A program made the position numbers and the translations under genes. The notes below the pieces were generated by a model. The model saw only the letters and a program-made list of their open reading frames with translations, was not told where the DNA came from and ran no database searches. Shown here one piece after another: positions 29,319 through 42,528 of a stretch of DNA of 64,000 nt (positions are counted from its first letter, which is position 1; each line of letters begins with the position of its first letter). Location: contig NZ_ASSJ01000070.1 of assembly GCF_000473895.1 (NCBI RefSeq), forward strand, positions 1 through 64,000, written 5' to 3'. The stretch comes from Rubidibacter lacunae KORDI 51-2. Its GTDB lineage: Bacteria > Cyanobacteriota > Cyanobacteriia > Cyanobacteriales > Rubidibacteraceae.

Positions 29319-29462
29319 ATGCAGACTTCAATTGATTCGAAGAAACAGTATCAGGAGCCGCGCATCGTTTGCGTAGGTGATGCAGTCAAAATGACTCTTA
29401 GTTTTGGTCAGTCTCTCATTAGAGACGCTAGATGGCGTTTTCCAATTGACCCCTCCGCATAG
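29319..29462 (+). CDS. Lasso peptide precursor (A)
   Basis: A 47-residue precursor. The leader (1-27) holds the lasso recognition motif YxxPxLxxxGxxxxxT with Tyr11, Pro14, Ile16, Gly20 and Thr26, so Thr26 takes the conserved -2 position. The core (28-47) is SFGQSLIRD followed by ARWRFPIDPSA. Ser at core position 1 and Asp at position 9 predict a nine-residue macrolactam ring; no other acid lies at positions 7-9. The bulky Trp12, Arg13 and Phe14 could lock the threaded tail. The core has no Cys, so a class II lasso is expected. Maturation proteins B1, B2 and C and exporter D lie downstream on the same strand. Confidence 0.88.
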   Translation: MQTSIDSKKQYQEPRIVCVGDAVKMTLSFGQSLIRDARWRFPIDPSA

Positions 29463-29480
29463 CCTCTTCATAGGCTAATT

Positions 29481-29531
29481 TTAGCTGCTAGCATCCCCTC
29501 AAGACTTCAGCGGGGGGATGTTAGTAGTTAA
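29481..29531 (+). promoter_or_regulatory. 18-bp RNA hairpin after the lasso precursor
   Basis: Arms 29481-29498 and 29514-29531 pair over 18 bases with a 15-base loop. Fifteen pairs are Watson-Crick, and the other three are G-U if the plus strand is transcribed; on the minus strand they would be A-C mismatches. No T run follows, so it is not a classic terminator. It begins 19 bases after the precursor stop and could stabilise the precursor mRNA or reduce read-through to the enzyme genes. A weaker 5-bp hairpin (29461-29476) overlaps the stop codon. Confidence 0.7.
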
Positions 29532-30359
29532 TATTCATTCATTGCTGTGCTTGTAGATTCAGTAATGTGATTCTCAAAATGTTTTAGCTTTCATACACAG
29601 CCAAAACCAATTCTACTTTTGAGCGGATGCATCGACGGATATGTTCTTGAAACTCCATAGGAAGATCTTTTTTTGATTTTCAAGCACTTCGACCTCCCTG
29701 TGCATTTTGCATTTCTAGCCTTAGTGTTCCTGGGGCATTAAAGTATTGCTAATCGCGACCGCTTCTGAGATGAAACAATAGTTTCATGCAAAATTGCTCC
29801 TTCTCAATTGCGCCTACACTACGTTGCTATTTTCAAATTTACCCGTAATTTTCGCTAAATTTGCGAGAGCAATAGCCTAAATAAGTAAACGTAGATTGTT
29901 TTGGAATTATCTCATCTGGCACGATGGCATCTGCAGCTGCAATCTGGTTCATTCAAAAGTATTAGGAATCACCGATAAGGACCTCCATGTAAATCCTGCG
30001 ACAATATAGCTTACGGTTCTCGTGTTGAGAAATTATTCCACGGCAACAAGTTTTAGGTTTATTAACTAGTTAGAACTTGCTAGTAATCGGCAGGAATTCT
30101 CGAGAATCTGCAAGATTGCGGCATGAGAGTTGAAATTAAGAAACTGCAATTAACTAACTTAAATAAATTGATAGTCAGTATTGAAGATAAGGTTTTTCCA
30201 CTTTGAAGGGATTAAGTTGCAAGAAAACTGAAGAACTTCTAGTCTATAGACTTACATATGAAATCAGTTGTACAAGATTCAAAAAATTGAAAATCCAAAA
30301 ATAACATTCTCTAGTGCACCTAGTATTTAGAATAAGCTTTAAAAATCTTGAGGGGAGAT
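29532..30359. other. Gene-free A+T-rich spacer inside the lasso cluster
   Basis: I read all plus-strand ATG frames here; the longest has 27 codons and no Shine-Dalgarno or lasso leader motif. There is no second precursor. The spacer could hold a separate promoter for the enzyme operon or be the remains of lost sequence. Confidence 0.5.
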
Positions 30360-32219
30360 ATGAAACGTTGGTTCTGTGGCTCAGTAAAAGGAAATGAAGA
30401 AAATAACAATTTAGAATTACTTGAACCTCTTAAAGGCAAAAGTATTTGGACGGGTTTAAGTTCGTTTTGGCTTTGCGGAAGCTGGCAAGAGCAACAATAT
30501 ATTAGTCTTACGGAAGGGTCTGTAAAAGTAGTATTTGTTGGAACCTGTCTATCATCCCGTGAGAACCTTGTCAGGAAGTTAAAAGCTGCTAAACAGTTGA
30601 GAAATTATAGCTTATTAATGCAGTTACCGGGTAACTATAATTTGATCGTTCAATCAGGTGAAGATACTTACATTTTCGTTGATGCTATGGGAGTCCGGCT
30701 AATATTCTATGCCTCTTGGAATTCTTCGATTATCTATTCCTCTATTTCGCTTTCATTGCAAAAACTAATCAAGGCGGAAGTCGATCTTCAATGGTTAGCC
30801 ACTTCTCTAGCTGGAATATCTACTTTGAGCTTGTCTAAAATTCGCTCTCCGTTTAAGAATATTAAATTAATTCCTCCAGGTAATTATTTACACATAACTC
30901 CCACAAATTCGAAACTAAAAAAATATTGGGTTACCATTTCCGGCTACAAACCATTTGCAGAATCTGCAAATGCACTTCAAGAATGCTTATTGAAGTCAGT
31001 AGAGGGAAGAGCAAGTCTCTATGGCAATGCAAGTAGCGATTTAAGCGGTGGGTTTGACTCAACAACCATAGCTATGATTGCTGCTAAGATGCTAAACAAA
31101 AAAGGCAAAAAATTCTATACAGTTACTGAGAAGACACATAGTGCCATTCGATCATCAGATATAAGATATGCTGAAGACGCAGCTAATCTTTATCCTAATA
31201 TAGAAGCATTGATGCTTTGCAAGGAAAATATTCCACTTGAATATGGCTCATTGAATTTAATTCCATTTACAGATTTCCCAAATCCTGCTCTTGCATATTG
31301 TATGGGCGGGCTAGATTATGTAATGAAGGCAATCAGGTCAATCAATTCTCAAGTACATATGAGTGGGGAGGGAGGCGATGCAGTGCTAATGAGTGTGGGA
31401 TATAGTTATCTCATCGATCTTATGAGAAAAGCTAGCTTTTCCCGATTCTTCCTACATCTTGCTGGTTGGTGTCGGGTTCACAGCCTATCATTACTAGGGT
31501 TATTATCTCTTGTTGTGAAACGAAGCATTCTTTCTTATCCTAATTGGTTGCAGAAAGTGAAAAGGCTTGAGTTCAGTGACCTGAAATTGAATCAAAGGTC
31601 AAAGAGTTTTCGCATGGCATGGGATATACTTCCTACAATTGCGAGTTGGCATTCAGATCAGTTGGGAGAGCAAGTTATTGCTGAGCTCCAAGATTTGACA
31701 GAAATTGCAGTCCCTTTTTCAGGATCTATGGGAGAGCATTTAACAATTTCATTGATCCAGCTAAATGCTATTTCAGCTCGTACTATTCAACAGGTAGCCG
31801 ATTTGTATGATGTAAATTTGGAATATCCTTATTTCGATCGATTAGTAGTTGAGGCGTGTCTATCAGCCAGACCATACGAGCGAACAAGTCCTATTTCATA
31901 CAAACCCCTTCTGGTCGAAGCTTTCAAAGATATACTTCCTCCCAGTATATATGTAAGAAATACTAAAGGGGAGTATGTCGCCGATGAATTTATTGGATTC
32001 AAGGCTAATCTTAATGGTATTAATTCATCCCTCGAAAATTCACAGCTTGTCAGGTTGGGATTAGTGGATGCAAGCAAATTACGAGCAGCGATGCAAAATT
32101 TTGTCATGGGTCTAGGCGATGAACTAGCACTTTTTAGTCCAACGCTAGCGACGGAGGCCTGGCTTAGGTGCTTAAATGAATCTCGGCACGAATTCTGGAA
32201 TTTCAGGAATTCACGGTAA
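30360..32219 (+). CDS. Lasso peptide macrolactam synthetase (C, asparagine-synthetase-like)
   Basis: This 619-residue homologue of McjC-type lasso cyclases adenylates the ring-forming acid side chain and joins it to the core N-terminus. Residues 1-150 are a degenerate glutaminase-like domain without the N-terminal catalytic Cys (it starts MKRWFCGS). The PP-loop ATP site is LSGGFDSTT, with SGGFDS at 229-234. A second asparagine-synthetase block is GEGGDAVLM, and later conserved helices end YPYFDRLVVEA. A TTG at 30348 is in frame, but the ATG at 30360 directly follows AGGGGAG. It should act in the cytosol on the leaderless core. The B1 gene begins 25 bases after its stop. Confidence 0.88.
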   Translation: MKRWFCGSVKGNEENNNLELLEPLKGKSIWTGLSSFWLCGSWQEQQYISLTEGSVKVVFVGTCLSSRENLVRKLKAAKQLRNYSLLMQLPGNYNLIVQSGEDTYIFVDAMGVRLIFYASWNSSIIYSSISLSLQKLIKAEVDLQWLATSLAGISTLSLSKIRSPFKNIKLIPPGNYLHITPTNSKLKKYWVTISGYKPFAESANALQECLLKSVEGRASLYGNASSDLSGGFDSTTIAMIAAKMLNKKGKKFYTVTEKTHSAIRSSDIRYAEDAANLYPNIEALMLCKENIPLEYGSLNLIPFTDFPNPALAYCMGGLDYVMKAIRSINSQVHMSGEGGDAVLMSVGYSYLIDLMRKASFSRFFLHLAGWCRVHSLSLLGLLSLVVKRSILSYPNWLQKVKRLEFSDLKLNQRSKSFRMAWDILPTIASWHSDQLGEQVIAELQDLTEIAVPFSGSMGEHLTISLIQLNAISARTIQQVADLYDVNLEYPYFDRLVVEACLSARPYERTSPISYKPLLVEAFKDILPPSIYVRNTKGEYVADEFIGFKANLNGINSSLENSQLVRLGLVDASKLRAAMQNFVMGLGDELALFSPTLATEAWLRCLNESRHEFWNFRNSR

Positions 32220-32244
32220 TTTGTAATCTAAAGGGATTAAAACA

Positions 32245-32508
32245 ATGAATGATACTCGTATTCCGTCATATGTTTCTACAACATATTTTCAAGATAGTGC
32301 TATTATCTTAGATAGTAGGAAGAATACATATTATACTTTAAATGATAGTGCTGCAACATTTTGGAAACTGCTAATAGAATTAAATTCTATAGTGGAAGCT
32401 ATTGAACAAGTCAAGAATTTATACGATCTTCCAAGTGACACTTTAGTCCAAGACATGAAACTTTTTGCCACAACTTTAGAAGATCTAGGTTTGATTAAAA
32501 GAGTTTAA
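32245..32508 (+). CDS. Lasso peptide leader-binding protein (B1, PqqD-like)
   Basis: The 87-residue protein has the winged-helix PqqD fold known as a RiPP recognition element. A short beta hairpin (IILDSRKNTYYTLNDSA) is followed by helices (ATFWKLLIELNSIVEAIEQV...) and the terminal LEDLGLIKRV. In lasso systems with split B proteins, B1 binds the leader's YxxPxLxxxG segment and hands the precursor to the B2 protease. It follows C after 25 bases and precedes B2 by 75 bases, consistent with one transcript. Confidence 0.88.
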   Translation: MNDTRIPSYVSTTYFQDSAIILDSRKNTYYTLNDSAATFWKLLIELNSIVEAIEQVKNLYDLPSDTLVQDMKLFATTLEDLGLIKRV

Positions 32509-32583
32509 TCGATTTCTGAAAATGACAAATTTTTTTTTGGTTTCACTACCTCATTGCAAAAATTCTAATAGGAATATCGGAAT

Positions 32584-33003
32584 ATGGATACTGATATGTC
32601 GGTAGAATTGATAAATTTATCTCTGAAACCTAGAGAATACTTAAAGGGACTTACAACTATTGTTATTGCTTACTTGGCGGTAAACCTCCTAAGTCTAGAA
32701 AGAATTGGTGCACTTCTCAGGAAATTCAAGCGATCATCTTGTCAAGAACTAAACACATGTGAAGCGGAAATTATTTGGGCTGCTATACACAAGTCGAGCT
32801 TATATTTTCCAGGGAGAGTTGCTTGCCTAGAACTCTCATTGGCTTTTACCATATATGCTTTGATTTCGAAACGCTCCTCAATTTGGTGTGTTGGTGTAGC
32901 AGTCGATCCGATACGTGCCCACGCGTGGGTAGAAGTTGAGCAAAAACCTTTTCATGAAAAGAACGATCTTTATCTGTATTTTAAAAAAATACTAGTCGTT
33001 TAA
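32584..33003 (+). CDS. Lasso peptide leader protease (B2, transglutaminase-like)
   Basis: This 139-residue cysteine protease of the lasso B2 family removes the leader after the Thr(-2)-X position. The catalytic Cys81 is in RVACLELSLA and His113 in RAHAWVEV; an Asp near 127 may complete the triad. The length is normal for a stand-alone B2. The ATG at 32584 and an in-frame ATG at 32596 are both possible starts. It needs B1 for leader recognition and is encoded directly after it. Confidence 0.87.
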   Translation: MDTDMSVELINLSLKPREYLKGLTTIVIAYLAVNLLSLERIGALLRKFKRSSCQELNTCEAEIIWAAIHKSSLYFPGRVACLELSLAFTIYALISKRSSIWCVGVAVDPIRAHAWVEVEQKPFHEKNDLYLYFKKILVV

Positions 33004-33047
33004 ACTTTTGGACATTGAAGCTTAGAATTTAGATTCAAGTGCTAATA

Positions 33048-34865
33048 ATGAAGTTAAAATTTTTCTTTATCAAAACTTATAATTATGTAAGAGATGTTAG
33101 TAGGTCTTTGACACTTCTGTGGAATGCAGCATTTTGTGAAAGCCTTTTTCTTGCTGTCCTTAGTATTTTGCAAGGAATATTTCCGGCAATTAGTATATCA
33201 ATTAGTAAGCTTGTCGTTGATGAAGTGGTTCTTAATCTAACGACTGATGTTCAGCCAAAACTTTCAATAATCATAATTCTGGTCACGAGTTGGATCGGGG
33301 TTCTAATGCTTTCACTCCTTCTTAATCCTTGGACAAAGGCTCTTCAAGGTAATTTAAATGATAAACTAACGGCGCATCTAAGCTTACTCTTAATGGAGAA
33401 AGTTAACAGTTTTCCAGATCTAAGTTGTTTTGAAGATTCAAGATTCTATGATGAGCTCCAGATACTTCAGAAACAGTTAAATTATCAGCCATTTAACCTA
33501 TTAAATTCTATTGTTGTAGGGGGACGTTCTTGTATTACATTATTAACAATGTTAATTCTGCTTTTACCTCTTGGGTATTGGATCCCAATAATATTAACAA
33601 TTGCTATTTTCCCTCAAATATTGGTATCCATGCAGTATGAGACACAAATATGGTCTGCTTTTTTTGACAAGGGCTATCAATCTCGCCGCATGTCTTACAT
33701 TACATCAGTTCTTTTTTCTGATACATTTGCAAAGGAGATAAGGCTTTTCAACCTAGGGAATTTTTTTGTAAGTCAATATTTAACAGCATTTCAAGTTTTA
33801 CACAGATCGATACGCCGCCTACGTATTCGGCAGGCACTTTGGGTATCTGGGCTAGCCCTATTAAGTACAATTGGCAATGGTGCTGCATTTTACTGGATCG
33901 TAAGGAAAGCTTTTAGAGGTCAGATTAGCCCAGGTAGCATTCTTCTTTTTCTAGAAGCATTGACAAATCTGCGATGGAGTCTTGAAGAATTTTTTGGAAT
34001 GTGGCTAAACTTGCATGAAACGATGCTTTATATGCAACAGCTATTTTCTTTTCTGGATAGTGAACCTAATATGAGACTTTCTTTCCCTGGGGAATTGGTA
34101 AAAAAACCATTACGCTCAGGAATAGATTTTAGAAATGTAAGTTTTTTTTACCCAGATAACCGTTTAGCTTTACTCAATATTACTTTCACGATTTTACCAG
34201 GTGAAACTATTGCGATTGTTGGGGAAAACGGTGCGGGAAAGACAACTCTAATAAAGTTGCTATTAAGGATGTACGATCCCGTACGGGGAGAAATATTAGT
34301 TGATGACATCAATATTAAAGAGCTAAATCTTGACGATTGGAGAAGGCAGGTTTCTGGTGTTTTTCAAGACTTTGGTCGTTATTATCTTACTTTAAGTGAA
34401 AATATTGCCCTTGGAGATCCGAGAGTCGCTGAGAATCACGAGGAACTAAGAATTGCGATTCGAAAAATAGGAATCCATCCTTTGGTTGAGCGACTTCCTG
34501 AAAAGGAGCACACTCCTTTGGGTAAGCAGTTTGGCGGCACTGAGCTTTCCGGTGGAGAATGGCAAAAGCTGGCTATAGCCAGAGCCATTGTCCGTAGAAA
34601 TGCCCAGATACTTATCCTTGATGAACCTACTGCTGCGCTCGATCCTCGAAGTGAATATGAAACTTACCAGCATTTCACTGAGTTAGCTCGTGGAAAAACC
34701 ACTATCCTAGTGACTCATCGTCTTGCTTCTGTAAAATTGGCGGATCGTATTCTGGTTATGAAAAAAGGACACCTGGTTGAGGTCGGAACTCACGAGGAGT
34801 TGATAGATAGAGATGGTGAATATGCTAGTTTATGGAATATGCAAGCTAATCAATATAAAGCATGA
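33048..34865 (+). CDS. Lasso peptide ABC exporter (D)
   Basis: This half-transporter of about 605 residues has an N-terminal domain of six membrane segments (first about residues 28-55, last near 280-310). The C-terminal ATPase has Walker A GENGAGKTTL (about 391-400), the Q-loop region GVFQDFGRYYL, the signature LSGGEWQKLAIARAI, Walker B ILILDEPTAALDP and the switch His in LVTHRLAS. It should dimerise and export the finished lasso peptide, giving self-protection, like McjD. A GTG at 33039 is in frame; I prefer the ATG at 33048, though no clear Shine-Dalgarno precedes either. It is the last gene of the cluster. Confidence 0.88.
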   Translation: MKLKFFFIKTYNYVRDVSRSLTLLWNAAFCESLFLAVLSILQGIFPAISISISKLVVDEVVLNLTTDVQPKLSIIIILVTSWIGVLMLSLLLNPWTKALQGNLNDKLTAHLSLLLMEKVNSFPDLSCFEDSRFYDELQILQKQLNYQPFNLLNSIVVGGRSCITLLTMLILLLPLGYWIPIILTIAIFPQILVSMQYETQIWSAFFDKGYQSRRMSYITSVLFSDTFAKEIRLFNLGNFFVSQYLTAFQVLHRSIRRLRIRQALWVSGLALLSTIGNGAAFYWIVRKAFRGQISPGSILLFLEALTNLRWSLEEFFGMWLNLHETMLYMQQLFSFLDSEPNMRLSFPGELVKKPLRSGIDFRNVSFFYPDNRLALLNITFTILPGETIAIVGENGAGKTTLIKLLLRMYDPVRGEILVDDINIKELNLDDWRRQVSGVFQDFGRYYLTLSENIALGDPRVAENHEELRIAIRKIGIHPLVERLPEKEHTPLGKQFGGTELSGGEWQKLAIARAIVRRNAQILILDEPTAALDPRSEYETYQHFTELARGKTTILVTHRLASVKLADRILVMKKGHLVEVGTHEELIDRDGEYASLWNMQANQYKA

Positions 34866-42042: not shown

Positions 42043-42528
42043 ATGAGCGTAGTTAGCCAAGTCATCCTCAAAGCAGACGACGAACTCCGCTACCCCAGTA
42101 GCGGCGAACTCCAGGGTATCCAGTCGTTTCTCGCCTCGGGCGAGCAGCGCATTCGCATTGCCGAAACCCTTGCCGAAAACGAAGACAAAATCGTGGGTCA
42201 GGCCAGCAAGCAGTTGTGGCGCCTGCACCCAGAATATATCGCGGCTGGCGGCAACGCTGCCGGTCAGCGCGAGCGGTCCCTCTGCTTGCGCGATTACGGT
42301 TGGTACTTGCGCTTGATCACCTATGGCGTCCTCGCGGGCGATAAAGATCCCATCGAGCGGATCGGTTTGATCGGCGTGCGCGAGATGTACAACGCACTAA
42401 ACGTGCCGGTGAGCGGCATGGCCGACTCCATCCGCTGTTTGAAGGAAGCTTCCCTCGGGTTGCTCTCCAACGAAGATGCGCTGGAAGCGGCTCCTTACTT
42501 CGACTTCATTATCCAGGCTATGTCTTAG
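42043..42528 (+). CDS. apcD: Allophycocyanin alpha-B subunit
   Basis: This 161-residue phycobiliprotein begins [23 protein letters not shown], which identifies ApcD rather than ApcA. The phycocyanobilin is attached at Cys81 ([13 protein letters not shown]). ApcD replaces one ApcA in the phycobilisome core and acts as a terminal emitter passing energy to photosystems, especially in state transitions. A GTG at 42037 is in frame, but the ATG at 42043 gives the known start. As usual, apcD stands apart from the apcABC operon. A terminator lies 169 bases downstream. Confidence 0.96.

Follow-up and report, generated by a model that had tools for sequence, protein, structure and literature searches.

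A probable class II lasso-peptide gene cluster of split-B type in the cyanobacterium Rubidibacter lacunae KORDI 51-2

Organization of the locus

The window analysed here is a stretch of 64,000 nucleotides from the marine cyanobacterium Rubidibacter lacunae KORDI 51-2 (contig NZ_ASSJ01000070.1, positions 1 to 64,000), whose published assembly comprises 4,153,658 bp in 99 contigs (PMC3910548). The contig carries a phycobilisome gene (42058-42522) and is therefore of cyanobacterial origin rather than a stray. Inspection of the ORFs and of the sequence located, between 29319 and 34865, five intact ORFs, all on the + strand and arranged A-C-B1-B2-D, exactly the interval and the order given in the initial annotation. 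The features of the locus are the following, with the evidence for each in brackets:

29319-29462, + strand: precursor A, 47 aa (profile of the relatives' precursors, alignment of 16 precursors)
29481-29531, + strand: 20-bp RNA hairpin directly 3' of A (folding energy against shuffled sequences)
30360-32219, + strand: cyclase C, 619 aa, asparagine synthetase/beta-lactam synthetase superfamily (NF033561, SGGFDS motif, relatives, clade)
32245-32508, + strand: B1, PqqD-like RiPP recognition element, 87 aa (PF05402, weak PDB matches)
32584-33003, + strand: B2, transglutaminase-like leader peptidase, 139 aa (NF033537, Cys81/His113/Glu125)
33048-34865, + strand: D, ABC exporter of the MsbA/McjD type, about 605 aa (PF00005, relatives' exporters)

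Ribosome-binding sites are found 5' of A, C, and B1. Specifically, AAGGAGAG lies directly upstream of the A start, and the ATG of C at 30360 sits behind GAGGGGAG, which makes the in-frame TTG at 30348 an unlikely start for this gene. The D frame, which ends at 34865, opens with the ATG at 33048 or with an alternative GTG at 33039. Neither an isopeptidase nor a regulator gene was seen among the ORFs adjoining the cluster, as had been described for this locus before.

Biosynthetic enzymes and exporter

The C protein passes the NCBIfam model of the albusnodin/ikarugamycin macrolactam cyclases (NF033561; 320.4 bits, E-value 2.2e-95, cut-off 300) and fails both the asparagine synthase model TIGR01536 (76.1 bits, cut-off 267) and the cyanobacterial cyclase model NF033535 (80.5 bits, cut-off 525). 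It carries a Pfam Asn_synthase domain and the SGGxDS cyclase motif in the form SGGFDS (residues 229-234), and its profile matches in the PDB are the TsnB9 hydroxyamidotransferase, beta-lactam synthetase, and asparagine synthetases. Beta-lactam synthetase also gives the best Foldseek matches of the C model, but confidence in the models was low for both C and B2 (mean pLDDT 57 and 62, respectively), too low for them to indicate anything beyond the superfamily.

B1 belongs to the PqqD family (PF05402; 7.6e-12, 45.8 bits, cut-off 23.4); in NCBIfam it comes closest to lasso PqqD chaperones, although these matches fall below their cut-offs, and its best PDB matches are the lasso recognition elements TfuB1 (6jx3) and TbiB1 (5v1u), both weak. 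The sole NCBIfam match of B2 is the lasso_biosyn_B2 model NF033537, well above its cut-off (68.1 bits against 33), and its match to Transglut_core3 in Pfam (1.9e-15) is the only one in the genome. An alignment of 15 B2 proteins, that of chaxapeptin among them, shows no variation at Cys81, His113, and Glu125, the last of which is likely the third catalytic residue. The exporter D contains complete ABC motifs (Walker A GENGAGKTT, signature LSGGE, Walker B ILILDEP, H-loop THR) and matches PF00005 (5.8e-31); it also resembles general MsbA-type exporters. Hence, all the key residues previously assigned to C, B2, and D were located, and the profile searches of C, B1, and B2 against lasso and non-lasso families brought no refutation of the lasso assignment, although the NCBIfam lasso matches of B1 lie below the cut-offs.

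Cyanobacterial relatives and the cyclase tree

A scan of genome contigs with the single C sequence found no relatives, and the clade was recovered by a two-row alignment search instead. C homologues with 41-47% identity lie on eleven contigs from other cyanobacteria (Nostoc, Scytonema, Scytonematopsis, Microseira, Komarekiella, Spirirestis, Tychonema, and Nostocales HT-58-2; loci designated by L numbers below), most of which have recognizable B1, B2, and precursors. D is often present, and in several of these loci the exporters are 56-61% identical to that of Rubidibacter. In two further loci the D homologue is divided among several frames (L036 879-2762, L037 1714-3063), which may reflect gene breakage or misassembly, and the genome assembly of Scytonematopsis contorta (L046, L048) encodes three cyclases of the clade.

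In a tree of 25 cyclases, the cyanobacterial relatives and the window form one clade (100/100), in which the Rubidibacter protein pairs with that of HT-58-2 (97/98) and which is separate from the G074/G078/G005 type of cyanobacterial cyclases. The clade is placed among actinobacterial cyclases, and the nearest group has chaxapeptin and lariatin-family members, a placement that is not strong (88/82). The distribution is narrow: the cyclase cut-off was passed in only 2 of the 386 genomes sampled across the phylum, the two-row profile matched in 3 of 391 genomes searched from the order, and a search of nine genomes of the family, the window's own included, turned up no comparable cyclase in the eight others.

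Moreover, a MacB-like permease occurs near 6 of the 11 relative loci and an HlyD-like protein near 5 of them (families checked on one representative each), while both are absent from the window in the stretch compared. The MacA/MacB-like efflux genes that adjoin the clusters (L044 11146-13658, L047 387-2382, L050 9574-13013, L052 9659-13145, L053 262-3690, and L054 11023-13783) possibly represent a second export or immunity system of the relatives.

Precursor peptide and predicted product

The precursor A consists of the leader MQTSIDSKKQYQEPRIVCVGDAVKMTL and a predicted core of 20 residues, SFGQSLIRDARWRFPIDPSA. With a profile built from the precursors of seven relatives only, A being left out, A ranked first among the 1,006 ORFs of the window (E-value 1e-11), followed by a runner-up at 0.75; in a separate search with the same profile, 18,320 shuffled ORFs gave nothing better than 0.82. 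The matches of A, B1, B2, and C are thus well beyond anything expected by chance. No convincing second precursor emerged among the window ORFs with this profile, and none of the NCBIfam precursor models matches A.

Alignment of A with 15 other precursors revealed five invariant positions (A numbering), Tyr11, Pro14, Thr26, Leu27, and Arg35, the last of which directly precedes the acceptor Asp/Glu. The leader motif of the YxxPxL type reads YQEPRI in A, with Ile in place of Leu, and the Thr at position -2 typical of lasso leaders (T26) is followed by Leu at -1. The cleavage site is therefore placed after Leu27, which would make Asp36 the ninth residue of the core, within the range of positions 7-9 of the ring-closing Asp/Glu. 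The predicted product would thus hold a Ser1-Asp9 isopeptide ring and, since the core has no Cys, would belong to class II; in lasso form, it would have a calculated monoisotopic mass of 2300.18. The first core residue is Ser, a less common choice than Gly, for which lariocidin, which also closes its ring on Ser1, offers a precedent (PMC11451635). A likeness to lariocidin, a cationic peptide that targets the ribosome, was considered; the Rubidibacter core has no more than three Arg, and besides Asp9 it contains another Asp that is free. Among the relatives, the predicted first core residue can be Arg, His, Trp, or Leu, not Gly/Ala/Ser (L044 9550-10675, L046 4318-4476, L050 9129-9293), and the HT-58-2 precursor (L054 5205-5402) is predicted to carry a core of 38 residues whose tail end is rich in Gly and Tyr.

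The hairpin downstream of A and the A-C gap

A and C are separated by 897 bp (29463-30359), a long, AT-rich gap without recognized gene or repeat, which contains the hairpin. The 91-nt stretch that includes it folds at -38.8 kcal/mol (z -6.5), a stability reached by 0 of 200 shuffled sequences. KORDI 51-2 is listed among the genomes analysed for REP sequences (PMC12306157). No second copy of either the hairpin or the A-C gap was found in the genome, which makes a genomic repeat a less likely source of the hairpin. Strong hairpins occur 3' of A in four relatives as well (z -8.1 in L047, -6.0 in L053, -5.8 in L044, and -3.0 in L045), while they are not significant in L051 or L054. The element is likely a transcript-stabilizing or attenuating structure that lets A be made in excess and may act by stabilizing the A transcript or by partly terminating it. 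In Microseira wollei (L045 69-470), precursor and hairpin are duplicated in tandem as a 224-base repeat encoding identical peptides.

Pairing between the hairpin and the C gene was considered as a further control element: 13 of 14 bases of the 5' arm and loop (29494-29507) show complementarity to the C ribosome-binding site (30343-30356), 835 bases downstream. This pairing is absent from L045, the one relative checked by eye, and was left as possible chance.

Origin of the island and biosynthetic reading

Across 29-35 kb, the GC content falls to 35-41%, compared with 49-63% in the surroundings, and the GC3 of C, B1, B2, and D (0.19-0.32) is close to that of the relatives' genes and far from the 0.62-0.68 of the neighbouring genes. 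This AT-rich composition and the narrow distribution make an acquisition probable, and the whole island was probably received from an AT-richer cyanobacterium. At the island borders, neither direct repeats nor the ends of a mobile element could be clearly recognized, so that we infer the acquisition indirectly.

The locus very probably represents an intact split-B cluster for a class II lasso peptide, a reading carried by the five genes, their family membership, the catalytic residues, the conserved precursor features, and the cyanobacterial clade, all taken from sequence comparison. In the proposed pathway, B1 would bind the YQEPRI leader motif and B2 would cut after Leu27, next to the Thr at -2; C would then adenylate Asp9 of the core and close the ring on the amine of Ser1, with the tail threaded through it. 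D would export the product and probably confer self-protection. The role commonly guessed for lasso peptides is in competition with other bacteria.

The most serious alternative, which retains a modest probability, is that of a silent or decaying acquired island from which no product is made. The foreign-looking, AT-rich DNA, the failure to find a second member in the other family genomes searched, and the 283 pseudogenes of the published genome annotation (PMC3910548) are in its favor, but five intact frames, a ribosome-binding site ahead of each of A, C, and B1, and the retention of all catalytic residues argue against it. Far less probable is an unthreaded head-to-sidechain macrolactam (branched cyclic) or another amide-forming RiPP in place of a true lasso. 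Threading is invisible to sequence and NF033561 pools albusnodin- and ikarugamycin-associated cyclases; yet A, C, B1, and B2 jointly fit the lasso gene set, homologues of C, B1, and B2 are present in the clusters of chaxapeptin and the lariatin family, and the YxxP motif and Thr at -2 of the precursor are marks of lasso leaders. Lastly, that C is an asparagine synthetase of primary metabolism with coincidental neighbours is extremely improbable, since, despite its Asn_synthase domain, C reaches 76 of the 267 bits required for asparagine synthase, compared with 320 on the lasso/macrolactam model, and groups with lasso cyclases of conserved neighbourhood.

Comparison with known systems

The closest counterpart of the Rubidibacter lasso cluster is found in HT-58-2 (L054), with the same order A-C-B1-B2-D, 47% identity in C and 61% in D, a leader with KQYxxP, and Arg-Asp at ring positions 8-9. 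The two differ in the core, which has 38 residues and a Gly/Tyr-rich tail in HT-58-2 and 20 residues in Rubidibacter, and in the MacA/MacB-like efflux genes, which adjoin only the former. The other relatives (L044-L053, including Microseira wollei) share a C of 41-46% identity, a B2 of 138-149 aa, and the conserved precursor marks; conversely, they often encode more than one precursor, on the opposite strand, with D located 5' of C, and their cores are more Arg-rich, with aromatic ends.

Outside the cyanobacteria, the clusters of chaxapeptin (Streptomyces leeuwenhoekii, L042) and of a lariatin-family peptide (Rhodococcus, L067) have a split B and the order A-C-B1-B2, the latter together with D, as in Rubidibacter. 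However, both are actinobacterial, their cores are unrelated, and the chaxapeptin C is only about 25-27% identical to that of Rubidibacter. In microcin J25 (McjABCD), the chemistry and the gene functions are the same as in split-B lasso clusters, but McjB is one protein and the leader is of the proteobacterial type, whereas the Rubidibacter B is split. The initial annotation had placed the locus in the McjB/McjC/McjD pathway with a divided B protein; the lasso gene set and the division hold, while sequence similarity supports enzymes of the split-B actinobacterial type (albusnodin/chaxapeptin/lariatin-like) rather than of the microcin J25 type. As for the albusnodin family, whose cyclase model is passed by the Rubidibacter C, no albusnodin-type acetyltransferase was found among the island ORFs, Lys10 is absent (Ala occupies position 10 of the predicted core), and the YxxP of the Rubidibacter leader is lacking in the albusnodin leader (PMC6784204, PMC9266682).

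Significance

Lasso peptides have been called underexplored in cyanobacteria (PMC9967302), and no description of an isolated cyanobacterial lasso product was found in the literature searched. The type of cluster is already known, and its novelty is limited by earlier reports: the antiSMASH lassopeptide region 1 of HT-58-2 (308,169-329,626; PMC8073705) includes the locus of the closest relative (L054, 312,561-326,417), and lasso clusters have been described for Cyanocohniella (PMC9332814) and Roseofilum (PMC9967302). The Rubidibacter peptide itself, as predicted from the sequence, would be new.

A broader reading, rather doubtful at present, is that the 13 cyclases mark a cyanobacterial lasso family whose products possibly have a distinct target or role and in which the Rubidibacter peptide has the most divergent tail. 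The hallmark of such a family would be the Thr-Leu cleavage site and the Arg before the ring-closing Asp/Glu, with bulky or basic first residues (Arg, His, Leu, Trp) in several relatives. As the cluster is small, intact, and harbored by a cultured type strain, the product and its activity are directly testable, and, with a precursor that falls outside all the NCBIfam models, the family hallmark provides a route to finding more members.
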